A stretch of 64,000 bases of DNA from Dichotomicrobium thermohalophilum (lineage in GTDB: Bacteria > Pseudomonadota > Alphaproteobacteria > Rhizobiales > Rhodomicrobiaceae), in contig NZ_QXDF01000001.1 in NCBI RefSeq assembly GCF_003550175.1, positions 706,501 through 770,500 on the forward strand, given 5' to 3'. Shown here piece after piece: positions 12,762 to 27,438 of the stretch; position 1 is the first letter of the stretch; each line of letters begins with the position of its first letter. Position numbers and translations under genes: made by a program. The notes beneath the pieces were generated by a model, which saw only the letters and a program-made list of their open reading frames with translations, did no database searches and was not told the DNA's origin.

Positions 12762-14792
12762 ATGACGACAGATCCGCTGCTCCAACCGTATCAACTGAAG
12801 CATCTGCGGCTGAAGAACCGCGTCATGATCACCGCGCACGAGCCGGCCTATGCCGAGGAGGGCGTGCCGAAAGAACGTTACCGCGCCTATCACGAGGAGC
12901 GGGCGCGCGCCGGCGTCGGACTGACCATGACCGCCGGCTCGGCCTCGGTGTCGCGGGACAGCCCGCCGGCTTTCAACAACATCGCCGCGTGGAAGGACGA
13001 AGTCGTCCCGTGGATGCGCGAACTGGCCGATTCCTGCCATGAGCACGGCTGCGCGGTGATGATCCAGCTCACCCATCTCGGCCGGCGCACGCACTGGAGC
13101 AACGGCGACTGGCTGCCGGTCGTCTCGCCGTCGCATGCGCGCGAGCCGGCGCATCGCGCCTTCCCGAAGAAGATCGAGGACTGGGACATCGACCGCATCA
13201 TCAGCGACTACGCCGATGCGGCCGAGCGCATGAAAGAAGCCGGCCTGGACGGCATCGAGCTGCAGGCCTACGGCCACCTGATGGACAGCTTCTGGTCGCC
13301 GCGCACCAACGACCTCGATCCGCCTTATGGCGGCGATCTCGACAACCGGATGCGCTTTTCGATGGAGGTGCTGCGCGCCGTGCGCGAGCGCGTCGGGCCG
13401 GATTTCATTGTCGGCTTCCGCTACACCGCCGACGAGGTCGCCCCGGACGGGATCAGCGCGGAAGAGGGCCTGGAGATCTCCAGGCGCCTGCGCGACACGG
13501 GCATGGTCGATTTCCTCAACGTCATCCGCGGGCATATCGACACCGACCCCGGACTCACGGACGTGATTCCGGTGCAAGGGATGCGCAGCGCGCCGCATCT
13601 GGACTTCGCCGGGGCCGTCCGCGCCGAGACGGGGATGCCCGTTTTCCATGCCGCGCGCATCCCGGACATCGCCACGGCTCGCCACGCAGTTGCCGAGGGC
13701 AAGCTTGACCTCGTCGGCATGACCCGCGCCCACATGGCCGACCCGCACATCGTGCGCAAGATCGTCGAGGGCCGCGAGGACGACATCCGCCCCTGCGTCG
13801 GCGCGACCTTCTGCCTGGACCGCATCTACATGGGCGGCGAGGCGCTGTGCATCCACAACGCCGCGACCGGGCGCGAGCTGGAGATGCCGCACGAGATCGC
13901 GCCGGCGACGAAGCAGAAGCGCGTCGTGGTCGTCGGCGCTGGCCCGGCCGGGCTGGAGGCCGCGCGCGTGGCGGCGGAGCGCGGACATTCTGTCGTTGTT
14001 TTCGAAGCCGCGCCCGATCCCGGAGGGCAGATCCGCCTGACGGCCCAGAACCAGCGCCGGCGCGAGATGATGTCGATCATAGACTGGCGGATGGCGCAAT
14101 GCACCGCGCGCGACGTCGAATTCCGGTTTAACTCATGGGCCGAGGAAGAAGACGTGCTCGGCGAGTCGCCGGATGTGGTGATTGTGGCCACGGGCGGCAT
14201 GCCTCCCGACAACGTGCTGGAAGACGGAAACGAACTGGTGGTTTCGAGCTGGGACATCATCGCCGGCGACGCCAAGCCGGGCCGCAACGTGCTGCTCTAT
14301 GACGATGCGGGCGATCATGCCGCCATGCAGGCCGCCGAGACGATCGCGAACGCTGGTGGGCATGTCGAAGTCATGACGCCCGACCGCAGCCTGGCGGCGG
14401 ACGTGATGGGCATGAACCTGGTGCCCTATATGCGCGCGCTGCAGGACAAGGACGTGACCTTCACGCTGACCTACAGGCTGCACCGCGTCGAGCGGTCCGG
14501 GAACCAGCTCCGCGCGCATATCGGCAGCGATTACATGCCGCTGCATGAGACGCGGGAGTTCGATCAGATTGTCGTCAATCACGGGACGATCCCGCTCGAC
14601 GACATCTACTTCGCGCTCAAGCCCCATTCGGCGAATAACGGCGCGGTGGATTACGAGGCGCTGGTCGCCGGCCGGCCGCAACCGGTGAATGGCGCGGACG
14701 GCTTCCAGCTCTACCGGATCGGCGACGCCGTCTCCTCGCGGAGCACCCATGCCGCGATCTATGACGCGCTCCGGCTGGTCAAGGATATCTGA
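12762..14792 (+). CDS. DgcA-like dimethylglycine / N-methylproline demethylase (FMN, Fe-S, FAD flavoprotein)
   Basis: A 676-residue protein of the trimethylamine-dehydrogenase/2,4-dienoyl-CoA-reductase superfamily. It has an FMN TIM barrel (1-340), an Fe-S segment (345-363) and an ADP/FAD Rossmann module (GAGPAGLEAARVAAERGH, near 392) running to the end. The usual C-x2-C-x2-C-x11-C cluster is here Cys345, Ala348, Cys351, Cys363, so one ligand position is alanine. Within this superfamily the closest functional group by memory is DgcA (dimethylglycine demethylase) and the demethylase of proline betaine degradation. A Rieske oxygenase and its reductase follow at once, which supports successive N-demethylation of a betaine. 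The substrate is not decided by sequence. Confidence 0.8.
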   Translation: MTTDPLLQPYQLKHLRLKNRVMITAHEPAYAEEGVPKERYRAYHEERARAGVGLTMTAGSASVSRDSPPAFNNIAAWKDEVVPWMRELADSCHEHGCAVMIQLTHLGRRTHWSNGDWLPVVSPSHAREPAHRAFPKKIEDWDIDRIISDYADAAERMKEAGLDGIELQAYGHLMDSFWSPRTNDLDPPYGGDLDNRMRFSMEVLRAVRERVGPDFIVGFRYTADEVAPDGISAEEGLEISRRLRDTGMVDFLNVIRGHIDTDPGLTDVIPVQGMRSAPHLDFAGAVRAETGMPVFHAARIPDIATARHAVAEGKLDLVGMTRAHMADPHIVRKIVEGREDDIRPCVGATFCLDRIYMGGEALCIHNAATGRELEMPHEIAPATKQKRVVVVGAGPAGLEAARVAAERGHSVVVFEAAPDPGGQIRLTAQNQRRREMMSIIDWRMAQCTARDVEFRFNSWAEEEDVLGESPDVVIVATGGMPPDNVLEDGNELVVSSWDIIAGDAKPGRNVLLYDDAGDHAAMQAAETIANAGGHVEVMTPDRSLAADVMGMNLVPYMRALQDKDVTFTLTYRLHRVERSGNQLRAHIGSDYMPLHETREFDQIVVNHGTIPLDDIYFALKPHSANNGAVDYEALVAGRPQPVNGADGFQLYRIGDAVSSRSTHAAIYDALRLVKDI

Positions 14793-14812
14793 ACGGTTCT
14801 CGTGGTGGATGA

Positions 14813-16066
<1,254 letters not shown>

Positions 16067-16070
16067 GCCG

Positions 16071-17144
16071 ATGATCCCACTGCCGCGCGAAGACACGCCC
16101 TCCTGGGACGATAGCGAGCCGTTGGAGTGCGTGATGGTGATCCCGGAGGCGCCGAACGTGCGCACCTTCGCGTTTCGCGCGCCCTCGGGCCGGTGGTTCC
16201 GCTACAAGGCCGGCCAGTTCATCACGCTGGAGCTCCCGGTGCCCGGCGGCCCGCTCTACCGCACCTACACGATCTCCACCAGCCCGTCGCGCTCCCTGTC
16301 GATCTCGGTGACAGTGAAGGCGCAGCCGAACAGCATCGGCTCGCGCTGGATGATCGACAATCTCAAGCCAGGCGACCGGATCCGCGCCTATGGGCCGGCG
16401 GGCATCTTCACGCTACCGCCCCAGCCGGACGGGAAATACCTGTTCATCGCGGCCGGCTCCGGCGTGACGCCGATGATGTCGATGACCGGTTACCTGTTCG
16501 ACCGGGGCGAGCAACCCGACGTGACGCTGATTGTCTGCGCGCGCCGCCCCTCTGAGCTGATCTTCCGTCGGCGGCTGGAGCACATGGCCGAGCGGATGCC
16601 GGGGCTGAAGCTGCATTACGTCGTCAGCGAGGAAGACCCCTACGACGTCTGGACCGGCTATCGCGGGCGCTTCAACCAGCTCATGCTCAGCATCATGGCC
16701 CCGGACTACCTGGAGCGGGAGGTCTATTGCTGCGGGCCGGAAGGTTTCATGCAGTCGGTGCGCGAGATGCTCTATTCGCTCGGCTACGACATGGAGAACT
16801 ACCGCCAGGAGAGCTTCCACGCGCCGGTGGAGAGCGAGGAAGAGGCGCCGGAGATCGAGGACATCGTCCCGCAGGAGGAGGCCAAGGCCGAGATCGTCTT
16901 TGCCGAGTCGGGTCACACGGCGACCTGTCTGGAGACCGATACCATCCTGGCGGTGGCCCGTAACTCCGGCCTTGTCATCCCGTCTGGTTGCACCTTCGGC
17001 GTTTGCGGCACCTGCAAGGTGAAGAAGCGCGCGGGCGAGGTGCATATGGTGCACAACGGCGGGATCAGCGAGGAAGACATTGAGGCGGGCTATATCCTCG
17101 CTTGCTGCTCCAACCCGATCGGGCGCGTCGAGGTCGAAGCCTAG
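16071..17144 (+). CDS. Hybrid ferredoxin reductase, GbcB/Stc4-like
   Basis: This 357-residue protein passes NAD(P)H electrons to the Rieske oxygenase. It has an N-terminal FAD domain (YRTYTISTSPS gives the RxYS/T flavin motif), an NAD domain (IAAGSGVTPMMSM, YCCGPEGFM) and a C-terminal plant-type 2Fe-2S domain (CTFGVCGTC and a final Cys in ACCS, about 305-345). The order FAD, NAD, ferredoxin is that of GbcB. It is the last gene of the module. Its TAG stop shares the CTAG at 17141-17144 with the stop of phnL on the other strand. Confidence 0.87.
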   Translation: MIPLPREDTPSWDDSEPLECVMVIPEAPNVRTFAFRAPSGRWFRYKAGQFITLELPVPGGPLYRTYTISTSPSRSLSISVTVKAQPNSIGSRWMIDNLKPGDRIRAYGPAGIFTLPPQPDGKYLFIAAGSGVTPMMSMTGYLFDRGEQPDVTLIVCARRPSELIFRRRLEHMAERMPGLKLHYVVSEEDPYDVWTGYRGRFNQLMLSIMAPDYLEREVYCCGPEGFMQSVREMLYSLGYDMENYRQESFHAPVESEEEAPEIEDIVPQEEAKAEIVFAESGHTATCLETDTILAVARNSGLVIPSGCTFGVCGTCKVKKRAGEVHMVHNGGISEEDIEAGYILACCSNPIGRVEVEA

Positions 17145-17848
17145 GCGGTCTGGGCCTGCGCGGAAAAGCGGGTGACGTCGACGACGCGGTCGGCGATGGT
17201 GTCACGGACCTGCGCATCATGGAAAATGCCGAGGATGGCCGCCCCGGCGTCGCGCCGCTCGCGGATGAGCGCCACGGCGCGGTCGCGGCTTTCGGCGTCG
17301 AGTGAGGCGGTTGGCTCGTCCAGCAGCAGGATCGGATGCTCAGCCGCCAGCCCGCGCGCCAGGTTCACGCGCTGCTGCTCGCCGCCGGAGAAGGTCGCGG
17401 GCGGCAGGCTCCACAGCCGTCCCGGCACGTTCAGCCGATCGAGCAGCCCCTCCGCACGCGTCATTGCCGCATCGGCCTCCAGCCCGGCATCCCGCGCGGC
17501 CGCGGCCACCAGCTCGCGCGCCGGCACCCTTGGAATCGCCCGCAGGAACTGGCTGACATAGCCGAGCGTGCGCCGGCGCAGCGCCAGCAGTCGGCGCGGA
17601 TCGGCCCGCGCGACGTCGACCCATTCGCTGCCGTCGCGCAGCCAGATCGCCCCGGCATCCGCGCGGTAATTGCCGTAAATCATCTTCAGGATCGACGACT
17701 TGCCCGCGCCCGACGGTCCGCCCAGCGCCACGCACTCGCCCGGCGCGACCGCGAACGCCACACCCCGCACAACCGGCAACTCCGCGCCGCCGCGCAAGTG
17801 CATCGTGAAGGTCTTCGCCACGCCCTCAAGCCGGATCGCCGCGTCCAT
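17141..17848 (-). CDS. phnL: Carbon-phosphorus lyase system ATP-binding protein PhnL
   Basis: A 235-residue ABC-type ATPase of the C-P lyase cluster with Walker A GPSGAGKSS, signature FSGGEQQRVNLARG and Walker B ILLLDEPTASLD. PhnL binds the PhnK subunit of the core complex rather than a membrane permease. In E. coli PhnL is followed by PhnM; here the operon ends with phnL and meets the betaine operon head-on. The gap to phnK is three bases. The identification rests on the motif set and on the gene order. Confidence 0.93.
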   Translation of the reverse strand: MDAAIRLEGVAKTFTMHLRGGAELPVVRGVAFAVAPGECVALGGPSGAGKSSILKMIYGNYRADAGAIWLRDGSEWVDVARADPRRLLALRRRTLGYVSQFLRAIPRVPARELVAAAARDAGLEADAAMTRAEGLLDRLNVPGRLWSLPPATFSGGEQQRVNLARGLAAEHPILLLDEPTASLDAESRDRAVALIRERRDAGAAILGIFHDAQVRDTIADRVVDVTRFSAQAQTA

Positions 17849-17851
17849 TCG

Positions 17852-18628
17852 CTACCCCTGCAACACCGAGGAGACCAGAAGCTGCGTATACGGCGCGCGC
17901 GGGTCGTCCAGCACCTGATCGGTGAGGCCCGTCTCGATCACGCGGCCCTCGCGCATGACCATGATCCGGTGGGACAAGAGCCGCGCCACGGCCAGATCAT
18001 GCGTGACGATGATCGCCGCCAGCCCGGTCTCGCTCGCCAGCCCGCGGATCAGGTCCAGCAGCCGCGCCTGCACCGAGACATCAAGCCCGCCGGTCGGCTC
18101 GTCCATGAACACCAGGCGCGGGCGCGTCACCATGTTCTTGGCGATCTGCAGGCGCTGGCGCATCCCCCCGGAAAAGGTCTCGGGCCGGTCGTCGATGCGG
18201 CCGGTGTCGATCTCCACGCGCCCGAGCCAGTCCGCCGCCGCGCCGCGAATGTTGCCATAGTGCCGCCAGCCGACCGCCATCAGCCGCTCGCCGACATTGC
18301 CGCCCGCCGAAACGCGCATCCGCAGGCCCTCGCGCGGGTCCTGATGGATGAAGCCCCAGTCGGTGCGCAGCAGCATCCGCCGATCGGCTTCGCTCAAGGC
18401 GAGAAGGTCGCGGGTCTGGCCGTCGCGGCCGCGATAGGTGATCTGCCCGCGCGTCGGCGCAAGCTGGGTCGAGAGCAGGCCGAGCAGCGTCGTCTTGCCG
18501 GAACCGGACTCGCCGACAACCGCCAGCACCTCGCCCGCATAGACCTCTAGGTCGACATTCGCGCAGCCGAGCCGCGCGCCGTAGTAGCGCGTCAGCCCCT
18601 CGGCCCGCAGCAGCGGCGTCTCATCCAT
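17852..18628 (-). CDS. phnK: Carbon-phosphorus lyase system ATP-binding protein PhnK
   Basis: A 258-residue ABC-type ATPase with Walker A GESGSGKTT, signature FSGGMRQRLQIAKN and Walker B LVFMDEPTGGLDV. In E. coli PhnK docks on the PhnGHIJ core via PhnJ. It resembles the oligopeptide-type ATPases, but its position directly after phnJ (4-base gap) and before phnL settles the call. The ATG start at 18628 fits the usual N-terminus (PLLRAEGLTRYYG). Confidence 0.93.
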   Translation of the reverse strand: MDETPLLRAEGLTRYYGARLGCANVDLEVYAGEVLAVVGESGSGKTTLLGLLSTQLAPTRGQITYRGRDGQTRDLLALSEADRRMLLRTDWGFIHQDPREGLRMRVSAGGNVGERLMAVGWRHYGNIRGAAADWLGRVEIDTGRIDDRPETFSGGMRQRLQIAKNMVTRPRLVFMDEPTGGLDVSVQARLLDLIRGLASETGLAAIIVTHDLAVARLLSHRIMVMREGRVIETGLTDQVLDDPRAPYTQLLVSSVLQG

Positions 18629-18632
18629 CGGT

Positions 18633-19466
18633 CTACTCCCCGCGCCGCGCCTCGCAATAATCGGTGTCGGAGCAGACGAACATGCGCCCGCCCTTGTCGT
18701 CCGTCACGACCTCGTCGAGATAAACGCCTTCCGCCCCGCACAGCGCGCATGGCTGATCGAAGCGGGTGCGCTCGAACGGGTGATCCTCGAAATCCAGGCT
18801 TTCCACGCGCGTGAAGGGCGGCAGCGCGTAAATCCGCTGCTCGCGGCCCGCGCCGAAAAGCTGCAGCGCCGGGCAATTGTCCATCTTCGGGTTGTCGAAT
18901 TTCGGGATGGGCGATGGGTCCATCACGTAGCGCCCGGCGATCTTCACCGGATAGGCGTAGGTGGTGGCGATGTGGCCGTGGCGCGCGATGTCCTCGTAGA
19001 GCTTGACATGCATCAGGCCGTAATCTTCCAGCGCGTGCATCTGGCGCGTCTCGCTCTCGCGCGGCTCCAGGAAACGCAGCGGCTCGGGGATCGGCACCTG
19101 ATAGACGAGGATCTGGCCAGCAGCCAGCGGCGTTTCCGGGATGCGATGGCGCGTCTGGATGATGGTCGCGTCGGCGGTGCGGGTGGTCGTTGCGACGCCG
19201 GCGGTGCGCTCGAAGAACTTGCGGATCGAGACGGCGTTCGTGGTGTCGTCCGCGCCCTGGTCGATCACCTTGAGCGTGTCGTCCGGCCCGATCACCGACG
19301 CCGTGACCTGCACGCCGCCCGTGCCCCAGCCATAGGGCATCGGCATCTCGCGGCTGGCGAACGGCACTTGGTAGCCGGGGATTGCGATCGCCTTGAGGAT
19401 CGCGCGCCGGACCATGCGCTTGGTCTGCTCGTCGAGATAGGCGAAGTTGTAGGCCGGGGCGCTCAT
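18633..19466 (-). CDS. phnJ: Alpha-D-ribose 1-methylphosphonate 5-phosphate C-P lyase PhnJ
   Basis: This 277-residue radical-SAM enzyme breaks the carbon-phosphorus bond. The four cysteines of E. coli PhnJ (241, 244, 266, 272) are present with exactly the same spacing: PCALCG, then 22 residues on FVCSDTDYC. The N-terminal glycine region GYQVPFASREMPMPYGWGTG is also intact. The ATG at 19466 is chosen because it overlaps the phnI stop (ATGA) and gives the usual start YNFAYLDEQTKRM. The enzyme acts on the product of PhnI, yielding the hydrocarbon and a cyclic phosphate. All visible active-site elements are intact. Confidence 0.97.
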   Translation of the reverse strand: MSAPAYNFAYLDEQTKRMVRRAILKAIAIPGYQVPFASREMPMPYGWGTGGVQVTASVIGPDDTLKVIDQGADDTTNAVSIRKFFERTAGVATTTRTADATIIQTRHRIPETPLAAGQILVYQVPIPEPLRFLEPRESETRQMHALEDYGLMHVKLYEDIARHGHIATTYAYPVKIAGRYVMDPSPIPKFDNPKMDNCPALQLFGAGREQRIYALPPFTRVESLDFEDHPFERTRFDQPCALCGAEGVYLDEVVTDDKGGRMFVCSDTDYCEARRGE

Positions 19467-20578
19467 TCGGCGGCCTCGCTGCTCGGCTGTTCGCCTTCCG
19501 CGCGCCGCTCTTCCCACTCCTTGCGGAGCTGGCGCACCAGCGCGAGTTCGGCCTGGAAGTCCACGTAATGCGGCAGCTTGAGATGCTCGACGAAGCCCGT
19601 CGCCTGGACATTGTCGGCGTGGCTGAGCACGAATTCGGCGTCCTGCGCCGGGGCGGTCACCGGCTCGCCCAGTTCCTCGGCGCGCAGGGCGCGGTCGACC
19701 ATCGCCATCGACATCGCCTTGCGCTCGCTGTGCCCGAAGGTCAGGCCGTAGCCGCGCGTGAATTGCGGCGGCGCTTCCGCAGAGCCGGCGAACTGGTTGA
19801 CCATCTCGCACTCCGTGAGCGTGACCTCGCCGAGCGGTACCTCGAAGCCAAGCTCTTCCGGCACGAAGGACGCTTCGACCGTGCCCATGCGGATTTCCCC
19901 GGCGAACGGGTGCGTGCGCCCATAGCCGCGCTGTGTGGAGTAGCCGAGCGCGAGCAGGAAACCTTCGTCGCCGCGTGCGAGCGCCTGCAGCCGAAGATCG
20001 CGCGGGGCGGGGAAGTCGAGCGCGCCACGCGTGACGTCGTTCACCTCCGCGCCGCTCGGCGGCTCGTTCTGCTCGATCAGCCCCTGGCGGCCGAGCAGTG
20101 AACAGACATGCGGCGCGGGCTCCGGCGGCTCCGGTGCAGGCTCCGACTTGGTCGCGGCGGCCTGGCTCTCGCCCTCCATGAGCGACGGGTCGAGCAGCCG
20201 GTGCGTGTAGTCAAAGGTTGGCCCGAGCACCTGCCCGCCGGGCAAGTCCTTGAAGGTCGCTGAAATGCGTCGCCGGATCGACATGTCGGCGGTGTCGACC
20301 GGCTCGGAATAGCCAAAGCGCGGCAGTGTGGTGCGGAACGCGCGGGCGAGAAAGATCGCCTCGATGAGATCGCCGCGCGCCTGCTTGATCGCCAGCGCGG
20401 CGAGGTCGGGGGCGTACAGCGACGCCTCGCACATGACTCGGTCGACCGACAGGCTGAGCTGCTCGCGGATTTGCGCGACCGTGATCTCCGGCACCGCAGG
20501 ATCGCCCCGCCGCGTCTTCGCCAGCAACTCGTGCGCTGCCGCGATCGCCGCTTCGCCGCCTTTGGCCGCGACATACAT
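19463..20578 (-). CDS. phnI: C-P lyase core subunit PhnI (nucleosidase / phosphonate transferase)
   Basis: A protein of 371 residues, close to the E. coli length of 354. PhnI, with PhnG, H and L, displaces adenine from ATP with the phosphonate. It begins MYVAAKGGEAAI and contains the conserved LARAFRTTLPRFGYSEP and ALGYSTQRGYGRTHPF segments. A Pro/Glu-rich stretch near residues 145-160 (PAPEPPEPAP) is a likely linker absent from E. coli. Its ATG shares a base with the phnH stop (TGATG), showing tight translational coupling. Confidence 0.95.
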   Translation of the reverse strand: MYVAAKGGEAAIAAAHELLAKTRRGDPAVPEITVAQIREQLSLSVDRVMCEASLYAPDLAALAIKQARGDLIEAIFLARAFRTTLPRFGYSEPVDTADMSIRRRISATFKDLPGGQVLGPTFDYTHRLLDPSLMEGESQAAATKSEPAPEPPEPAPHVCSLLGRQGLIEQNEPPSGAEVNDVTRGALDFPAPRDLRLQALARGDEGFLLALGYSTQRGYGRTHPFAGEIRMGTVEASFVPEELGFEVPLGEVTLTECEMVNQFAGSAEAPPQFTRGYGLTFGHSERKAMSMAMVDRALRAEELGEPVTAPAQDAEFVLSHADNVQATGFVEHLKLPHYVDFQAELALVRQLRKEWEERRAEGEQPSSEAAE

Positions 20579-21162
20579 CAGCCCGTCTCCACGATCTCCG
20601 TGCTGCGGGGCAGGGCCGCGATCTGGCCGTTGCCCGCAAAAATGATATCGACACCCTGCGGGAAGCGCGCATGGTTGTCGCGCCACTGCTTGATGAAATC
20701 CTCCGGGAGCGGGCCGGCGCTGAACCGCGTTTCGCCCTCGATACCCGGGCCGGTCAGGCGCCACTCGTGCTGGAATTCTTTGACCTGGATAATCGCCGTC
20801 GCGGAACGGTCGGGATAATCCGGCGTGCCCGGCGCGAAGGTCGAAAGCGCGGGCGCGTTATGCGTATCAGTGATGACAGCAAAGTCGGCCAGCGCCGGAT
20901 CGTCAATCAGCCGCGCGCCGGTATGAAAGCGCAGGAACTGTGCGGCCGTGACATCGACGCCTGTATCGCTCCAGACCTTCGTTTCGTAGTCGGCCAGTGT
21001 CAGCAGCACCGCGGCGGCTGCCGCATTGAGCGGGGCGGGCGGGGCGAATCCGACATCGACGTCGACAATCTGACCAGGTTGCGCCATTGCGCTCATCACG
21101 GCGCGAAACGCCTGCTGGCTCTCGTGCGCCGGATCCGTGAAGGCGCGAAAGACCATGTTCAT
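20578..21162 (-). CDS. phnH: C-P lyase core subunit PhnH
   Basis: This 194-residue subunit of the PhnGHIJ core complex starts with the typical region VFRAFTDPAHESQQAFRAVMSAMAQPG and includes LADYETKVW and GPGIEGETRF. PhnH is a catalytically silent PLP-transferase-fold protein needed for assembly. It overlaps phnG by four bases upstream and phnI by one base downstream. Confidence 0.94.
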   Translation of the reverse strand: MNMVFRAFTDPAHESQQAFRAVMSAMAQPGQIVDVDVGFAPPAPLNAAAAAVLLTLADYETKVWSDTGVDVTAAQFLRFHTGARLIDDPALADFAVITDTHNAPALSTFAPGTPDYPDRSATAIIQVKEFQHEWRLTGPGIEGETRFSAGPLPEDFIKQWRDNHARFPQGVDIIFAGNGQIAALPRSTEIVETG

Positions 21163-21617
21163 GTGTCATCCTCTCCGCGGACAAGCGTGAAGAAGTTGAC
21201 GCGCGTCTTGGCTGTTTCCGCGGCCTGGGCCTGCTGTTCGGCGATACGCCGCGTTGTCACCGGGGTTACAAGCGCGTCTTCGAGCCGGGCCCGCCATTGC
21301 GCATCCTGTCCAAGCGCATCGACGATCGCGGCGAGCCTTGCCTTTTTCTCGCAACGGCCAAGCAAATAAGCGTGACCCAGCGTCTCGGCAACCCGCACCG
21401 TTGCGCGGGTCACCGTCGCCTCGCCGAGATTGAACGGTGCGCCGTCCCCGCCGATTCGGCCCCTCAGCATGACCAGCCCCTGCTCCGGCGCGCGGATGTC
21501 TTCTGCCTCCGGCAACGGGGCAAGCGCATCGAGCGCTTGCTCCAACTCGGCCTCGCTCGCTTGGGCGCAGATGCGCATCAGGGCCTGGCGCGCGGCGGTT
21601 GCTTCCTGCTCAGGCAT
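21159..21617 (-). CDS. phnG: C-P lyase core subunit PhnG
   Basis: A small core subunit of 152 residues with the family features GLVMLRGRIGGDGAPFNLGE and TVRVAETLGHAYLLGR. The N-terminus (EQEATAARQALMRIC) matches the usual helix. It overlaps the preceding HD-domain oxygenase gene by 8 bases and phnH by four, so the whole run from the oxygenase to phnL is a single tightly coupled operon. Confidence 0.93.
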   Translation of the reverse strand: MPEQEATAARQALMRICAQASEAELEQALDALAPLPEAEDIRAPEQGLVMLRGRIGGDGAPFNLGEATVTRATVRVAETLGHAYLLGRCEKKARLAAIVDALGQDAQWRARLEDALVTPVTTRRIAEQQAQAAETAKTRVNFFTLVRGEDDT

Positions 21618-22212
21618 TGCTCCGGTCGGGGCCGTTCATGCGCACGCAGCGGATCGCATAGCTCAGGAAATAGCCCAGCGTCGCGGTCTTTCGGTTCGGG
21701 TCCTTGCCGCGATCATCCCAGCGGCGCAGGCGCACGGCGTCCTGGGCGTGGGGGTTGGCCTCGAACTCGGCGACTTCCGCGTCGCTCATCGGGCCGCCCT
21801 GCAGCATCAGCGAATGCTGGGACATCGGCGAGAGCGTGTCGTAGTAGCCCGGTTCAACGGCGCAAAGATAGCGCTTCGCGGCGACATGCAGGCGGACCGG
21901 CTCGGTGACGCTCGGGCCGAACCACTTGGACAGGAACGCATCGCCCAACTCCTCGTGGCGGCGGTCCTCGTCATGCGCCGGCGCGTCCTCGAAGTCGTCC
22001 TCGAGCAGATGCCCCACATCGTGCAGCAGCGCGGCCGTGATGAGCGCGGGCGAAGCGCCTTCGTCCTCGGCGAGTTGCGCGCATTGCAGCGCGTGCTGGA
22101 GCTGTGTGACCGGCTCGCCGCCATAGAGGTCGTTGCCGTGCTTCTCGACCATCTCGGTCAGGACGCTACCGAGCGGGGCGTCCGGCGCGGTGGCGATGCT
22201 GGCATCCGTCAT
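21610..22212 (-). CDS. PhnZ/TmpB-type HD-domain mixed-valent diiron oxygenase (organophosphonate cleavage)
   Basis: A 200-residue HD-domain protein. Every residue described as important in PhnZ has a counterpart at the right spacing: Tyr30 and Glu33 (YGGE), His40, His64-Asp65 (LLHDVGH), His86 (RRHEELG), His109 and Lys113 (LHVAAKRYL) and Asp166 (RRWDDRGK). PhnZ converts 2-amino-1-hydroxyethylphosphonate to glycine and phosphate; TmpB converts the trimethylammonio analogue to glycine betaine and phosphate. The alpha-hydroxylating partner (PhnY/TmpA) is not in the window. The gene starts 14 bases after lysR and overlaps phnG. The ATG at 22212 follows an AAGGAGG site. Which hydroxyphosphonate is cut is undecided. 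Confidence 0.85.
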   Translation of the reverse strand: MTDASIATAPDAPLGSVLTEMVEKHGNDLYGGEPVTQLQHALQCAQLAEDEGASPALITAALLHDVGHLLEDDFEDAPAHDEDRRHEELGDAFLSKWFGPSVTEPVRLHVAAKRYLCAVEPGYYDTLSPMSQHSLMLQGGPMSDAEVAEFEANPHAQDAVRLRRWDDRGKDPNRKTATLGYFLSYAIRCVRMNGPDRSNA

Positions 22213-22226
22213 GTCTGGGCCTCCTT

Positions 22227-23162
22227 CTATGTTGATGAAAGCGTCGGTTCGGCATTGTCGAGATCGGCCTGCGCACAGGCGTCGAAGAATGCGTCGATGA
22301 GGGGCAGTCCCTCGGTCTCGCTGAGGCCGACGGCATAGACTCCTCCGGCGCTGGTACAGTCGGTGATCTCCAGCGCGGCAAGCCGCGTGTCGCTGCCCAT
22401 CTCCCCGGAGAGCACGACGCCAACGCCCAGCCCCGCCGCGGCGGCTTCCTTCACGGCCTCTCGCGTGGGCATGACCAGAGGCGCGCGCAAGGTCAGCCCC
22501 GCATCCCGGCACGCCGTCTCGACCACCTGCCGAGTCAGCGATCCGTCTTCGCGCAGGATGAGCGTCTGATCTGCCAGCTCAGCCAGCGTGACCGTGCGGC
22601 GACGGGCCAACGGCGAGTCTGCGGCTACGCAGAGCAACGGGCGTTGCGGTGCGATCAGTTCCGCGCGGACGCCCTCGGGCACGTCCAGCAGCGTCATCAC
22701 GCCCACATCGATCTCGCAGGCGGCGATCATCTGCAGCAGTTCCACGGTATTACCCTGCCGCGTGCTGATCTCGACGGCCTTGTGCGCGCTCTTTAGCTGG
22801 GCCAGCACCCGCATTGCCACCGATGGCGTTGAAAAGCCCACCTTCAGGCGTCCACGGGCCAGCGCCCCAAGCTCCTGCGCCGTCGCCTCGATGTCGCGCG
22901 CCCCGGCCAGGACGGCGCGGGCCTTGTTGTAGATCTCGCGTCCCGACGCGGTCAGCCGAACGCCGTGCGCGCGGTCCAGCAGCCGCAGGCCACAGCTTGC
23001 TTCCAGCATCTGCACACGCTGCGAGACGGTTGGTTGGCTCAGGCCCAGCCAGAGGGCCGCGCGCGAAAAGCTGCCCTGTTCGACCACGGCGACGAACGCC
23101 TCCAGTTCATTCAACGACAGCTTCACGCGCACCGGCGCGGCTTTGTCTGCGGTGTCGGCCAT
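22227..23162 (-). CDS. LysR family regulator heading the phosphonate operon
   Basis: A 311-residue LysR-type regulator with an N-terminal winged helix-turn-helix (about residues 17-76, LSQPTVSQRVQMLEASCG) and a periplasmic-binding-like effector domain. It is the first gene of the - strand phn operon and is divergent from phnC, so it is placed to control both. The classical local regulator of C-P lyase operons, the GntR-type PhnF, is absent. The effector may be a phosphonate (inference). Confidence 0.87.
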   Translation of the reverse strand: MADTADKAAPVRVKLSLNELEAFVAVVEQGSFSRAALWLGLSQPTVSQRVQMLEASCGLRLLDRAHGVRLTASGREIYNKARAVLAGARDIEATAQELGALARGRLKVGFSTPSVAMRVLAQLKSAHKAVEISTRQGNTVELLQMIAACEIDVGVMTLLDVPEGVRAELIAPQRPLLCVAADSPLARRRTVTLAELADQTLILREDGSLTRQVVETACRDAGLTLRAPLVMPTREAVKEAAAAGLGVGVVLSGEMGSDTRLAALEITDCTSAGGVYAVGLSETEGLPLIDAFFDACAQADLDNAEPTLSST

Positions 23163-23344: not shown

Positions 23345-24166
23345 TTGATCGAATTTCGTAATGTTCGCAAAGAGTTCGGCCAAGTCGTCGCGGTGAAGGA
23401 CGTTTCCTTCACGATAGACCGGCCGATGATGGTGGGCGTCATCGGACGCTCCGGCGCCGGCAAATCCACGTTTCTACGGATCATCAATCATCTGACACCG
23501 GCCACCGCCGGCGAAGTTTTTATCGACGGTCGCAATGTGCTGGCGCTGCGCGGCCGCGCGCTGCGCCGCTGGCAGCGTGACTGCGCCATGATCTTCCAGC
23601 AGTTCAATCTCGTTCCGCGGCTTGACGTCATTACCAACGTGATGCTCGGCCGGCTGAACGGTCACGGCACAGTGCGCAGCCTGTTCAACATCTTCGGCCA
23701 GCAGGACATCGCCGACGGTCTGGCTGCGCTGGAACGGCTCGGGATCGCCGATCAGGCCATGAAACGCGCCGAAGCGCTATCGGGCGGGCAGCAGCAGCGC
23801 GTCGCCATCGCCCGCGCGCTCATGCAGGAGCCGATGCTCGTGCTGGCGGACGAGCCCATCGCCTCGCTTGACCCGCTGAACGCCGAGATCGTGATGAAGG
23901 CGCTGCGCGAGATCCATGAGCGCGACGGCAAGACCGTCATCTGCAACCTGCACACGCTCGATACCGCGCGCACCTATTGCGACCGCATCATCGGGATGCG
24001 CGAGGGCGAGATCGTGTTCGATGGCACGGCCGATCAGCTCACACAAGGCACGGTGCGCGAGATCTACGGCGCGGACGAAGACCTGAACGAGGCGGCGACC
24101 TCGACGAGCTTGGAGATGACCGCCACGGGGGAGACGGAAGAAAGAGCCTCGGCGGCAGCAGGATGA
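23345..24166 (+). CDS. phnC: Phosphonate ABC transporter ATP-binding protein
   Basis: A 273-residue ATPase with Walker [10 protein letters not shown], signature [15 protein letters not shown] and Walker [15 protein letters not shown]. It starts at a TTG, preceded by GAGGG at 7 bases, and the start [13 protein letters not shown] is the family N-terminus. The C-terminal ~25 residues are acidic and Ala/Thr-rich, beyond the usual end. It is the first gene of phnCDE1E2 and powers phosphonate import. Confidence 0.94.
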
Positions 24167-24224: not shown

Positions 24225-25142
24225 ATGATGAAGTTTACGAAACTGGTGCTTGCGGGCGCGGTTGCTGTGGCCGCCTTCGCCGGCGCGGCTCAGGCCCAGG
24301 ACAAGCAGATCGAGGAGTTCCGCATCGGTCTGCTGGGCGGTGAGAACGCTCAGGATCGCCTGCGCTCGAACGAGTGCCTGCGCGAGAAGGTTGAAGATCT
24401 CCTTGGCGTTCCGACCAAGCTGTTCGCCCCGGCCGACTACAACGGCGTGATCGAGGGGCTGCTGGGCGGCAACCTGGACATGGCCTGGCTGGGCGCTTCC
24501 GGATACGCGAAGGTCTACCTGGAAGACCCGGACGCGGTTGAGCCCGTGCTGGTGAAGATCAACACCGACGGCAGCTACGGCTATCATTCCTTCGGCTTTG
24601 CCCGCCGCGATTCCGGCATCGAAACGCTGGAAGACGCCAAGGGCGCGGATTTCGCGTTTGGCGACCCGAACTCCACCTCGGGCTACCTGATTCCGTCGAT
24701 CGAGATGCCGGAAGCGCTCGGCATGCCGGTTGAGGAATTCTTCGGCGATGTGTCGTTCTCCGGCGGTCACGAGCAGTCGATCATCGGCGTGTACAACGGT
24801 GACATCGACGTCAGCATTTCCTGGGCTGACGGCCTCGGCAACTGGGAAGACGGCTACAATTCCGGCGCGTTCCGCAAAGCGGTCGATGCCGGCCTGGTCG
24901 ACATGACCGAACTGGTGCAGGTGTGGAAGTCCGAGGTCATTCCGGAGGGGCCGATTGTCGTGCGGAAAGACCTGCCGAGCCGGGTGAAGCTCGATGTGGT
25001 GGCCCTCATGGCGTCGCTCGAATCGATGGACCCGGAATGCGCCTACGGCGTGATGGCCGGCGAGATCAAGGGCATGGCTCCCATTGATCACAGCGCCTAC
25101 ACCTCGATCGTCGAGGCGCGCAGGCGCACCATCGGCGAGTAA
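24225..25142 (+). CDS. phnD: Phosphonate ABC transporter substrate-binding protein
   Basis: A 305-residue periplasmic protein with a Sec signal (KLVLAGAVAVAAFAGAAQA). The PhnD family pattern is clear: FRIGLLGGENAQDRL, then ADYNGVIEGLLGGNLDMAWLG, and the phosphonate-binding loop DPNSTSGYLIPS. Two adjacent ATGs (24225 and 24228) are possible starts. It is a little shorter than E. coli PhnD (338). A GC hairpin with a short T-run follows, probably setting the ratio to the permeases. Confidence 0.93.
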   Translation: MMKFTKLVLAGAVAVAAFAGAAQAQDKQIEEFRIGLLGGENAQDRLRSNECLREKVEDLLGVPTKLFAPADYNGVIEGLLGGNLDMAWLGASGYAKVYLEDPDAVEPVLVKINTDGSYGYHSFGFARRDSGIETLEDAKGADFAFGDPNSTSGYLIPSIEMPEALGMPVEEFFGDVSFSGGHEQSIIGVYNGDIDVSISWADGLGNWEDGYNSGAFRKAVDAGLVDMTELVQVWKSEVIPEGPIVVRKDLPSRVKLDVVALMASLESMDPECAYGVMAGEIKGMAPIDHSAYTSIVEARRRTIGE

Positions 25143-25160: not shown

Positions 25161-25200
25161 GGTTCCGGCGGCGCGCCCGCGCCCCGGAGCCGCTTTTATT
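25161..25200 (+). promoter_or_regulatory. Hairpin with T-rich tail between phnD and phnE1 (partial terminator)
   Basis: GGTTCCGG (25161-25168) pairs with CCGGAGCC (25184-25191) with one wobble, and the inner bases are also GC-rich. It is followed by CTTTTATT. This has the shape of a weak intrinsic terminator, in the place where binding-protein operons often have one. It would lower permease relative to PhnD synthesis. Confidence 0.5.
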
Positions 25201-25213
25201 GAGGATCCCGCCC

Positions 25214-26062
25214 ATGTCGGTCGCCGCGCTCGAAACCCAGATCATTGCGCTTGAACGCCAGCGCCGGCTTTATTCCGGGCTGCTGGTCCTCATCATTGTC
25301 CTGATCCTGGTCGCCGGCTATGCGGAAGCCGAAAGCCTCAACTCCGGCAGTTTCTGGCTGGGTCTTCAGAAATTTTTCGACTACCCCGGTGCTATCGTCA
25401 GCAAGGCCATCGAGGCGGGCTGGGGCTTTTTTGCCATCGTCCTCGAATTTGTGCCGGCGCTGATCGAGACGATCAATATCGCGCTGGTCTCCACGCTGAT
25501 CGGCGGGGCGCTCGCCGTGGTGCTCGCCTTCGCCAGCACCCGGATGCTGGATGTCTGGCCGCCCCTGATCCCGATCACGAGGCGCCTGATGGACATCATG
25601 CGCGCCTTCCCGGAACTGATCATCGCGCTGTTCCTCATTTACGTTCTTGGCGGCGGGCCGGTCCCGGCGATGATCGCGGTGGCGTTTCACACCGCCGGCG
25701 CGCTGGGCAAGCTGTTCTCCGAGGTTAACGAGAACATCGACCAGAAGCCGATCGAAGGGCTGCGCTCGGTCGGCGCGAACTGGGTTGAGCGGATGCGTTT
25801 TGGCGCGCTGCCGCAGGTGCTGCCGAACTATCTGAGCTATCTGCTGCTGCGCCTGGAGATCAACGTGCGCGCCTCGGCCATTCTCGGCTACGTCGGCGCG
25901 GGCGGCATCGGCGTGGAGCTGCGCCGCACCATCGGATGGGGCCGAGGCGCCGGTGATGAGACCGCGGCAATCTTCCTGCTGTTGTTCCTGACCATCATGG
26001 CGGTGGATCAGCTTTCCTCCTTCCTGCGGCTGCGGCTGACGCGCCCGATCGGAACGGATTAG
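25214..26062 (+). CDS. phnE: Phosphonate ABC transporter permease, first copy
   Basis: A 282-residue permease with about six helices. It begins with a short cytoplasmic segment, then YSGLLVLIIVLILVAGYAEAE. The ATPase-contact loop is EGLRSVGANWVERMRFGALPQVLP. ATG 25214 is preferred to TTG 25199 because GAGG lies 9 bases upstream. It is followed after 8 bases by a second PhnE, so the importer is probably a heterodimer of permeases. Confidence 0.92.
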   Translation: MSVAALETQIIALERQRRLYSGLLVLIIVLILVAGYAEAESLNSGSFWLGLQKFFDYPGAIVSKAIEAGWGFFAIVLEFVPALIETINIALVSTLIGGALAVVLAFASTRMLDVWPPLIPITRRLMDIMRAFPELIIALFLIYVLGGGPVPAMIAVAFHTAGALGKLFSEVNENIDQKPIEGLRSVGANWVERMRFGALPQVLPNYLSYLLLRLEINVRASAILGYVGAGGIGVELRRTIGWGRGAGDETAAIFLLLFLTIMAVDQLSSFLRLRLTRPIGTD

Positions 26063-26070
26063 GAGAGGCG

Positions 26071-27438
26071 ATGTCGGTCACGACGGACACGGCAGGCGCG
26101 GACGAGCAGCTGCGAAAGCGTGTCGGCAATCAGGTCAACCGGCGAAAATGGTTGATCCTCGGGACGCTCGCGGCCGTCTTCGCCTACTTCGTTTATGCTT
26201 GGGACGCGTTCGAGATTTCCGAGCTGATCGAGGAGGTGCGCCCGCGCAACGCTGTGCTGCTGGGCACGGATGCGGTCATGCACAAGGTTCATGTGCTCCG
26301 CAGCAGCCGCACCGGAGAGCTGGAGATCGCCGTTGAGGGCGAGCGGACGGCGACCTATAGCGAGCCGCCGGAATGGGTCGTGCTGGGCGATGACCGAGCC
26401 GGGATCGACCTGGGGGAAGGCTATCGCGCCGAAATCGAGGGGCCGCAGGTGTCGCTGTTCGCGCCCGGTTATGGCGAGATCACCGCCAGAGCGACCGAAG
26501 ACGGCGTCACGGCGGAACTGCCGCCCGGGCCGCTGCCGGACTGGGCGAAGGTTGCGGATTACAAGGTGGATTTGCGCCCGACGATCGACCGGCGCGTGCA
26601 GATCACGCGCTCGAAGATCGAGGTGCACCGCTATTTCTTCGGCTGGGAGAATTTCTGGTTCCCGTTCCGATCGGAGTTGAACGCCTATTCCTGGGGCGAG
26701 CTGGCGTCGCTGGCGATGAGCGGCGAACGGCTGAACCCGGAGATGCCGAACTGGCAATACATCTTCCAGACGTTCTGGGAGAACCCGGACTGGCAGCATC
26801 GGCGCGTCTTCATCGCGCTTTGGGAGACGTTGCTGATGGCCGTGCTGGGCACGCTGACCGCCGCGCTCATGGCGCTGATGCTGTCGATGCTGGCGGCGGC
26901 GAATTTTTCGCCCTCGCGGGTGCTGCGGTTCTTCGTGCGCCGCCTGTTCGATTTTCTGCGCGGGATCGACATGCTGATCTGGTCGCTGATCTTCATCCGC
27001 GCCTTCGGCCTCGGCCCGCTGACCGGCGCGCTGGCGATCGCCTTTACCGACACCGGCTCGCTCGGCAAACTGTTTTCGGAGGCGCTGGAGAATGTCGAGA
27101 AAAACCAGATCGAGGGTGTCCGCGCGACCGGCGCCAATTCGCTCCAGCGCTACCGCTTTGGTATTATCCCGCAGATCCTGCCGGTATTCCTGTCGCAGAC
27201 GATCTATTTCCTGGAATCGAACACGCGCTCGGCCACGGTGATTGGCGCGCTCGGCGCGGGTGGCATCGGCCTTTTGCTCGTGGAGACGATGAACACACAG
27301 CGCGACTGGGAGAACGTGGCCTACCTGATCGTGCTGACGATCCTGCTCGTTATCGCGATGGATTCGCTGTCGGGCTATCTGCGCCGGCGGCTGATCAAGG
27401 GCGGCGATGACCCGCGGCTGGCCCCGCGCGCGATCTGA
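26071..27438 (+). CDS. phnE: Phosphonate ABC transporter permease, second copy, with large N-terminal domain
   Basis: A 455-residue permease, about 170 residues longer than its neighbour. After one helix (KWLILGTLAAVFAYFVYA, about 27-45) comes a soluble, beta-rich region of about 200 residues (about 50-245), then the standard PhnE membrane domain from FIALWETLLMAVLGTLT. The contact loop is IEGVRATGANSLQRYRFGIIPQILP-like. The insert is predicted to be periplasmic and may contact PhnD. Last gene of the importer operon; it ends three bases from the convergent metallopeptidase stop. Confidence 0.9.
   Translation: MSVTTDTAGADEQLRKRVGNQVNRRKWLILGTLAAVFAYFVYAWDAFEISELIEEVRPRNAVLLGTDAVMHKVHVLRSSRTGELEIAVEGERTATYSEPPEWVVLGDDRAGIDLGEGYRAEIEGPQVSLFAPGYGEITARATEDGVTAELPPGPLPDWAKVADYKVDLRPTIDRRVQITRSKIEVHRYFFGWENFWFPFRSELNAYSWGELASLAMSGERLNPEMPNWQYIFQTFWENPDWQHRRVFIALWETLLMAVLGTLTAALMALMLSMLAAANFSPSRVLRFFVRRLFDFLRGIDMLIWSLIFIRAFGLGPLTGALAIAFTDTGSLGKLFSEALENVEKNQIEGVRATGANSLQRYRFGIIPQILPVFLSQTIYFLESNTRSATVIGALGAGGIGLLLVETMNTQRDWENVAYLIVLTILLVIAMDSLSGYLRRRLIKGGDDPRLAPRAI

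Follow-up and report, generated by a model that had tools for sequence, protein, structure and literature searches.

A PhnZ-family oxygenase gene in the carbon-phosphorus lyase operon of Dichotomicrobium thermohalophilum: a recurrent, probably accessory gene outside the TmpB clade

A 64,000-nucleotide stretch of the Dichotomicrobium thermohalophilum genome (assembly GCF_003550175.1, contig NZ_QXDF01000001.1, positions 706,501 to 770,500; hereafter the window) was analysed around a gene of the PhnZ family of HD-domain oxygenases, here called Phn-HD, which lies inside a carbon-phosphorus (C-P) lyase operon and is one case of a recurrent, probably accessory gene, not a peculiarity of one genome. 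The minus strand reads LysR-HD-phnG-phnH-phnI-phnJ-phnK-phnL, with phnC-phnD-phnE1-phnE2 divergent on the plus strand (Table 1). The start codon of Phn-HD (ATG at 22212) is preceded by a ribosome-binding site, AGAAGGAGG; 14 bp separate the gene from the end of the LysR gene, and its own end overlaps the start of phnG by 8 bp. An earlier sequence-only reading of the window had proposed this gene, giving no strand, and an 8-base overlap with phnG; the gene is real and lies on the minus strand, the overlap was measured, and phnG scored well over the cut-off of TIGR03293. The plus-strand frame at 21610-22212 is an unrelated reading. Within the LysR-HD-phnGHIJKL/phnCDEE set, only the LysR gene was without a passing NCBIfam or Pfam cut-off.

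The C-P lyase operon was recognised by phnGHIJKL lying together in the window and phnM and phnN elsewhere in the genome (C, G and L numbers designate contigs, genomes and loci). No phnM was seen in the window; it is present on contig C2 of the same genome (C2:148690; 480.5 bits, cut-off 390.55), with phnN adjoining (181.3 bits, cut-off 156) and a DUF1045 gene convergent with the pair (PF06299, 153.6 bits; TIGR03223, 200.8 bits, under the cut-off of 248.95). The C-P lyase gene set of this genome is near complete, divided between two places. The phnM-phnN-DUF1045 group (L082:9703-12388) has a ProV-type betaine transporter ATPase gene about 8 kb upstream. At the other end of the window operon, a plus-strand cluster (12762-17144) runs convergently towards phnL, overlapping it by 4 bp, and comprises an OYE/FadH-family flavoprotein, which we take to be DgcA-like (best model 486.5 bits, cut-off 793), and GbcA-like (513 bits, cut-off 670) and GbcB-like (350 bits, cut-off 500) genes.

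Table 1. Genes of the LysR-HD-phnGHIJKL/phnCDEE region, in window coordinates.
Feature	Position	Strand	Basis
Phn-HD (PhnZ-family HD-domain oxygenase gene, P0002)	21610..22212	-	200 aa; TIGR03276, homology and predicted structure
LysR-type regulator	22227..23162	-	best model TIGR03339 (aminoethylphosphonate-associated LysR) 206.6 bits, under cut-off 341.1
phnG	21159..21617	-	TIGR03293 156.5 bits, cut-off 89
phnH	20578..21162	-	TIGR03292 183.5 bits, cut-off 91.5
phnI	19463..20578	-	PF05861 541.6 bits, passes Pfam cut-off
phnJ (C-P lyase radical subunit)	18633..19466	-	PF06007 497.2 bits, passes Pfam cut-off; also in genome scan
phnK	17852..18628	-	TIGR02323 373 bits, cut-off 302.85
phnL	17141..17848	-	TIGR02324 306.2 bits, cut-off 256.3
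phnC (divergent transporter ATPase gene)	23345..24166	+	TIGR02315 311.9 bits, cut-off 266.1
phnD (phosphonate-binding protein)	24225..25142	+	TIGR03431 302.6 bits, cut-off 261.1
phnE1 (permease)	25199..26062	+	TIGR01097 233.4 bits, cut-off 216.7
phnE2 (permease)	26071..27438	+	TIGR01097 258.8 bits, cut-off 216.7

Phn-HD passed the family model TIGR03276 ('phosphonate degradation HD-domain oxygenase'; 235.7 bits, cut-off 214.6) and fell under both the TmpB equivalog model (NF049941; 191.3 bits, cut-off 300) and the Gimesia PhnZ model (NF052439; 176.8 bits, cut-off 300), to which the protein of locus L075, adjoining a PhnY*-like gene, scored 229.4 bits. Its closest solved relatives in phmmer comparisons were TmpB (6npa, E 8e-40) and PhnZ (4mlm, E 5e-29), values that indicate a likeness beyond chance. 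An AlphaFold2 model built from 38 sequences (mean predicted local distance difference test, pLDDT, 90; predicted template modelling score, pTM, 0.86) superposed on TmpB with Z 26.4 over 177 residues (root-mean-square deviation 1.7) and on PhnZ with Z 24.2-25.2, the next family being MIOX at Z 10.8 (VIA-align), which Foldseek gave only at E 2.8; judged on the predicted fold, MIOX is a distant relative. A placement with non-phosphonate HD hydrolases, which the earlier proposal had named as an outcome that would refute it, was not observed: the fold comparison groups Phn-HD with the phosphonate oxygenases.

The ligand set H...HD...H...H...D and the YxxE loop, as set out in an excerpt of PMC8177086, are complete in Phn-HD (H40, H64-D65, H86, H109 and D166; Y30 and E33), and these residues, with Lys113, are the ones listed in the sequence-only reading, each present under its number. 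For comparison, 76 rows were aligned, namely the window protein, TmpB, PhnZ and 73 of 75 loci, L077 and L078 being dropped as partial HD matches. Residues H40, H64, D65, H86, H109, R163, D166 and Q138-G139-G140 were invariant in 76/76 rows, while Y30 was kept in 74, E33 in 73 and K113 in 75. Also excluded from alignments and trees was a fragment at G013:C60:43742-44268, a second HD copy in that genome, divided by an internal TGA stop and apparently broken.

The 76-row tree grouped TmpB with every TmpA-linked row but L058 in a 27-row clade (support 100/99), L058 being its sister (95/87), and L038 and L111 fell within this clade though no TmpA match adjoins them. Phn-HD was placed outside it, in a separate 16-row clade (100/98) made up of seven C-P lyase-linked rows (the window's counted), one phnE-linked row and eight others. 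The long PhnZ branch joined the long L075 branch, and the position of PhnZ was not settled by the tree. Three columns adjoining the first metal ligand were compared between the 20 C-P lyase-linked rows and 26 others, these being 25 TmpA-linked loci and TmpB: position 41 was Ala in 20/20 versus Met in 26/26, position 44 was Cys (17) or Ala (3) versus Gly in 25/26, and position 37 was Gln in 18/20 versus Met or Val in 25/26. The window protein carries Gln37, Ala41 and Cys44, and PhnZ carries Gln37, Ser41 and Cys44, so that Phn-HD resembles PhnZ rather than TmpB at positions 37 and 44; the three positions may set substrate specificity. Of the earlier label "PhnZ/TmpB-type", the phosphonate HD oxygenase part is borne out by family model, fold and residues, whereas a TmpB-type identity is not supported, the tree, the NCBIfam scores and columns 37, 41 and 44 setting the protein apart from the TmpA-linked clade. 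Within the named genome collection, Phn-HD was closest to L047-L051 (63-68% identity), where no phn genes lie within the sequence examined; L050 and L051 adjoin genes that, judged by eye, resemble fatty-acid synthesis genes.

Phn-HD and PhnJ were searched for in 249 genomes of the order (Rhizobiales; completeness 90% or more, the window's genome among them) and were found in 41 and 135 of them, respectively. By tree position and TmpA adjacency, a non-TmpB copy was present in 20 of the 41 genomes, and the other 21 had a TmpB-clade copy only; two genomes had both kinds. A phnJ gene lay within 10 kb of 13/20 non-TmpB copies, whereas this was the case for 0/23 TmpB-clade copies. PhnJ was present in 19/20 of the non-TmpB genomes versus 116/229 of the others (Fisher p 7e-5) and 11/21 of the TmpB-clade-only genomes (p 0.004 against the 20), both p-values being subject to the non-independence of related genomes. 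HD came directly after phnM in 12 loci, of which 11 belong to the 13 linked genomes, and 11 of the 12 continue with phnN. This makes phnM-HD-phnN the usual arrangement, although some of these loci are near-copies from one genus; HD before phnG was seen only in the window's genome. In Burkholderiales, HD followed phnC-D-E in seven loci (L062-L064, L068-L071; no phnG-L was seen in L070), as it did on an annotated Variovorax plasmid, and on the Nostoc plasmid pNsp_b (L114) it stood between a PhnM-type gene and phnJ. Such varied placements relative to the same operon look like repeated recruitment.

The sequence-only reading had treated the pairing of oxidative and radical phosphonate cleavage in one operon as unusual, which was overstated: several arrangements recur, public records annotate the pairing, and an excerpt of PMC9381506 mentions substrate-specific genes within C-P lyase operons. 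What is odd about the window gene is its position before phnG, behind the LysR gene. A conserved LysR-HD pair was considered and rejected, the window LysR query having matched, among the loci compared, only L112 (29%) and L094 (28%) at E<=1e-12, with L044 and L046 added at 1e-6. In L118, the member of the family with the most similar core operon (PhnJ 89%), phnG faces phnC, and no LysR or HD match was found between them, so the pair was either gained in the window's lineage or lost in L118. Other settings of the family were also recorded. The pNsp_b C-P lyase operon additionally has a GNAT acetyltransferase gene and a FosA-like gene, and the plasmid was typed as conjugative. Phn-HD genes of Sphingomonas and Hoeflea (L059, L066, L067) adjoin a gene for a phosphocholine-specific phospholipase C, identified through TIGR03396 in L059 and through homology in the other two. 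In Bacteroidota (L053-L056), Phn-HD is flanked on one side by an HpnW-type FAD oxidoreductase gene, identified in L055 by TIGR03364, and on the other by a gene for a phosphonatase-like hydrolase, identified in L053.

As the sequence-only reading had remarked, the alpha-hydroxylase partner is missing from the operon, where no TmpA or PhnY* match was found; no TmpA/PhnY-type gene was seen in the rest of the window either, whose genes were scanned in part against family libraries. The genome-wide search for a PhnY/TmpA-like hydroxylase that it had proposed turned up no TmpA, the sole candidate being a doubtful PhyH gene. TauD/PF02668, a TmpA protein query and the TmpA model all returned nothing from the whole window genome, while the known TmpA genomes G050 and G229, used as controls, matched the TmpA model, and a true TmpA matches PF02668 at 153 bits. 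The PhyH-family gene (109.2 bits; L002:1432-2328, contig C2) is flanked by tripartite ATP-independent periplasmic (TRAP) transporter genes and, on the other side, by a gene of the PEP_mutase family, and its protein gave a weak 48.8 bits to the methylphosphonate-hydroxylase model and matched no NCBIfam family at E<=1e-15. In L072 and L075, where HD has a PhnY*-like neighbour, that neighbour reached 249 and 276 bits, respectively, with that model, itself under the model's cut-off of 500; it is the model of the methylphosphonate enzyme and had no control of the aminoethylphosphonate (AEP) type of PhnY*. It gave 49-58 bits in 4/20 non-TmpB Phn-HD genomes, the window's included. In the 20 C-P lyase-bearing loci, covering up to 20 kb each, there were no matches to the TmpA and PhnY* references. 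In 2/20 non-TmpB genomes, G042 and G045, the TmpA model passed its cut-off, and each of these genomes has a TmpB-clade copy in addition. Sub-threshold matches of 314 and 273 bits in G123 and of about 50 bits in G233, G067 and G098 may be butyrobetaine-type enzymes. A PhnW-type AEP pathway was not found in the window genome (best 92.1 bits, cut-off 400.8), and none of 14 control genomes passed that cut-off either. The hydroxylase partner was thus not found by PhyH- and TauD-directed searches, hydroxylases outside these two families not having been sought, and the hydroxylase-free branch seems to live on ready-made hydroxyphosphonates or on a hydroxylase that these searches did not recognise.

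Considering the family, the fold, the conserved ligand and loop residues, the operon position, the recurrence and the absence of TmpA, we infer, with a probability of about 0.6, that Phn-HD acts as an accessory mixed-valent diiron (Fe2+/Fe3+) oxygenase of the C-P lyase operon, belonging to the PhnZ superfamily and cleaving ready-made (R)-1-hydroxyphosphonates. PhnCDE would import a mixture of phosphonates. Those hydroxylated on the carbon that bears the phosphorus would go to Phn-HD, the likeliest substrate being (R)-1-hydroxy-2-aminoethylphosphonate (R-HAEP) or a close analogue, while those without an alpha-hydroxyl would enter the PhnGHIJKLM radical route. Substrate binding at the diiron site would open the YxxE loop, O2 would be activated, and the C-P bond would be cut to give phosphate and a carboxylate, glycine in the case of R-HAEP; no alpha-hydroxylase would be needed because the hydroxyphosphonate would arrive ready-made. 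The chemistry is modelled on PhnZ and TmpB, in which the YxxE loop swings away when the substrate binds, leaving Fe2 open to O2, and C-P cleavage needs no external reductant (PMC8177086, in excerpt). Precedents for accessory enzymes are given in excerpts of other articles: PhnO must acetylate 1-aminoalkylphosphonates prior to their use by C-P lyase (PMC3463581), and PbfA handles R-HAEP, which PhnW-PhnX cannot process, phnZ homologues being found in 24/75 phnWAY clusters and none alongside PbfA (PMC8154272). The PhnO and PbfA precedents make an accessory role plausible. The handling or detoxification of hydroxyphosphonates, as suggested in the sequence-only reading, is still the preferred putative function. 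For the Achromobacter PhnHD, which has no PhnY*, HAEP was the ligand favoured by in silico prediction (PMC11203657, in excerpt). A wider proposal, held tentatively and at somewhat less than even odds, is that C-P lyase operons repeatedly recruited a hydroxylase-free PhnZ branch (as phnM-HD-phnN, phnCDE-HD and LysR-HD-phnG), one regulon splitting the imports between the radical and the O2 route by the alpha-hydroxyl, and that this branch may have its own substrate, unlike those of PhnZ, TmpB and the Gimesia PhnZ.

Several observations weigh against the accessory role. No phnJ lay within 10 kb in 7/20 non-TmpB genomes: G020 had no phnJ, G239 had it 1.2 Mb away, and in the other five it was on another contig, HD being at or near a contig end in three of these five. 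In the window's own clade, 8/16 rows, the close relatives L047-L051 among them, are not beside C-P lyase genes, the contigs of L047-L049 extending only 0.3-3.4 kb on one side. Glu33 is replaced by Ser in L092, which is itself linked to C-P lyase genes, and columns 37, 41 and 44 may be marks of a clade, not determinants of specificity. Hydroxymethylphosphonate could equally be the substrate, the PhyH gene of contig C2 could act in trans, and the literature excerpts contained no statement that hydroxyphosphonates resist C-P lyase.

The PhyH gene is the starting point of the alternative in which the oxidative route is split, an unlinked Fe(II)/2-oxoglutarate-dependent (Fe/2OG) hydroxylase such as this PhyH protein making the hydroxyphosphonate in the cell and Phn-HD finishing the reaction. 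The genome does hold this one PhyH-family gene with its weak methylphosphonate-hydroxylase match, and the neighbouring gene falls in Pfam PEP_mutase (260.9 bits), a superfamily that contains phosphonate enzymes and ordinary carbon-carbon lyases alike; the adjacency makes a split route slightly likelier and the accessory role slightly less so. However, the PhyH gene sits among TRAP transporter genes far from the phn genes, its protein found no NCBIfam family where the neighbours in L072 and L075 scored hundreds of bits, even such weak matches occurred in just 4/20 non-TmpB Phn-HD genomes, and the window genome has no TauD/TmpA gene, so we regard a split route as unlikely. The chances are slim, in turn, that Phn-HD is TmpB itself, converting (R)-1-hydroxy-2-trimethylaminoethylphosphonate to glycine betaine for degradation via the neighbouring GbcA/GbcB-like genes. 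TmpB is its closest solved protein, the glycine betaine monooxygenase-like genes converge on and overlap phnL, and matches to the window's GbcA- or DgcA-like genes lie 3-5 kb from the TmpB-clade genes L108 and L111, as expected if TmpB yields glycine betaine; against this, the TmpB model gave Phn-HD 191.3 bits when the TmpA-linked L041, itself just under the cut-off, reached 290.4, the protein lies outside the 27-row clade, Gln37, Ala41 and Cys44 differ from the Met/Val, Met and Gly of TmpA-linked rows, and none of the three TmpA searches (PF02668, protein query, model) found the partner in the genome.

Two other accounts dispense with phosphonate oxygenation or with the tie to C-P lyase. Phn-HD might be a phosphoesterase of the C-P lyase pathway standing in for PhnP, whose reaction would be the hydrolysis of 5-phosphoribosyl 1,2-cyclic phosphate, as its phnM-HD-phnN position in 11 loci and the lack of a PhnP over the cut-off in the window genome (best 35.7 bits, cut-off 272.25) would allow. 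This is improbable: Phn-HD keeps the loop and substrate residues of phosphonate oxygenases, its predicted fold groups with these far above hydrolases, 116/135 phnJ genomes of the order have no non-TmpB copy, which means that the pathway does not need it, and a DUF1045 gene, DUF1045 being a proposed alternative phosphoesterase, lies beside phnM-N in the window genome and in 16/20 C-P lyase loci. Nor do we give much credence to Phn-HD being a relic, or a gene carried along neutrally by horizontal transfer and unconnected with C-P lyase. It was found in 1/8 searched genomes of the family, the window's own, some relatives are outside phn clusters, and relatives occur on 28 plasmid records; set against these are the intact frame, ribosome-binding site and complete catalytic residues, and the association with phn genes, which takes several arrangements and extends over two phyla.

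The family is already named in NCBIfam and public records, and its association with C-P lyase genes is partly in print and in automatic annotation. Within the open-licence literature searched, no description was found of a fixed phnM-HD-phnN place or of a hydroxylase-free branch in C-P lyase operons; phnZ subclades with differing substrates are already in print (PMC8316502, in excerpt). C-P lyase operons are taken to indicate methane formation from methylphosphonate, and phnZ counts to indicate AEP degradation. Both readings of metagenomes would need correction if many phnZ-like genes were hydroxylase-free accessories of C-P lyase: a separate AEP pathway could no longer be read from phnZ counts, and in some C-P lyase bacteria hydroxyphosphonates could be converted to phosphate and carboxylates with no release of alkanes. 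If the branch had a substrate of its own, a pool of 1-hydroxyphosphonates so far unrecognised in the environment would be indicated. A table in an excerpt of PMC3840354, in which glucose, nitrogen and methylphosphonate gave phnZ in 9% of cells and phnY in 0, phnZ being already at 4% without methylphosphonate, is at least compatible with hydroxylase-free phnZ accessories.

Among known systems, the Achromobacter PhnHD (TIGR03276; PMC11203657, in excerpt) is like Phn-HD in family model, residues, phosphonate context, a nearby LysR gene and the lack of a PhnY* partner, but adjoins a phosphonatase (phnX/HpnW) cluster, whereas Phn-HD lies inside a C-P lyase operon. PhnZ of the uncultured bacterium HF130_AEPn_1 (4MLM, 4MLN, 4N71, 4N6W) shares with it the fold, the metal ligands, the YxxE loop and the equivalents of Gln37 and Cys44, at 33-35% identity in superpositions, and works with PhnY*, which was not found beside Phn-HD. 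TmpB of Leisingera caerulea (6NPA) has the fold, ligands and loop in common at 40% identity, and differs in its separate clade, its Met41 and Gly44 and its TmpA partner, not seen in the system of the window genome. The Gimesia maris PhnZ, a hydroxymethylphosphonate dioxygenase (NF052439), belongs to the same superfamily, and no methylphosphonate hydroxylase stands beside Phn-HD. PbfA (R-HAEP ammonia-lyase) and PhnO (aminoalkylphosphonate acetyltransferase) are unrelated to Phn-HD in protein and chemistry, but the logic is alike, in that accessory enzymes let a main phosphonate pathway take substituted substrates.

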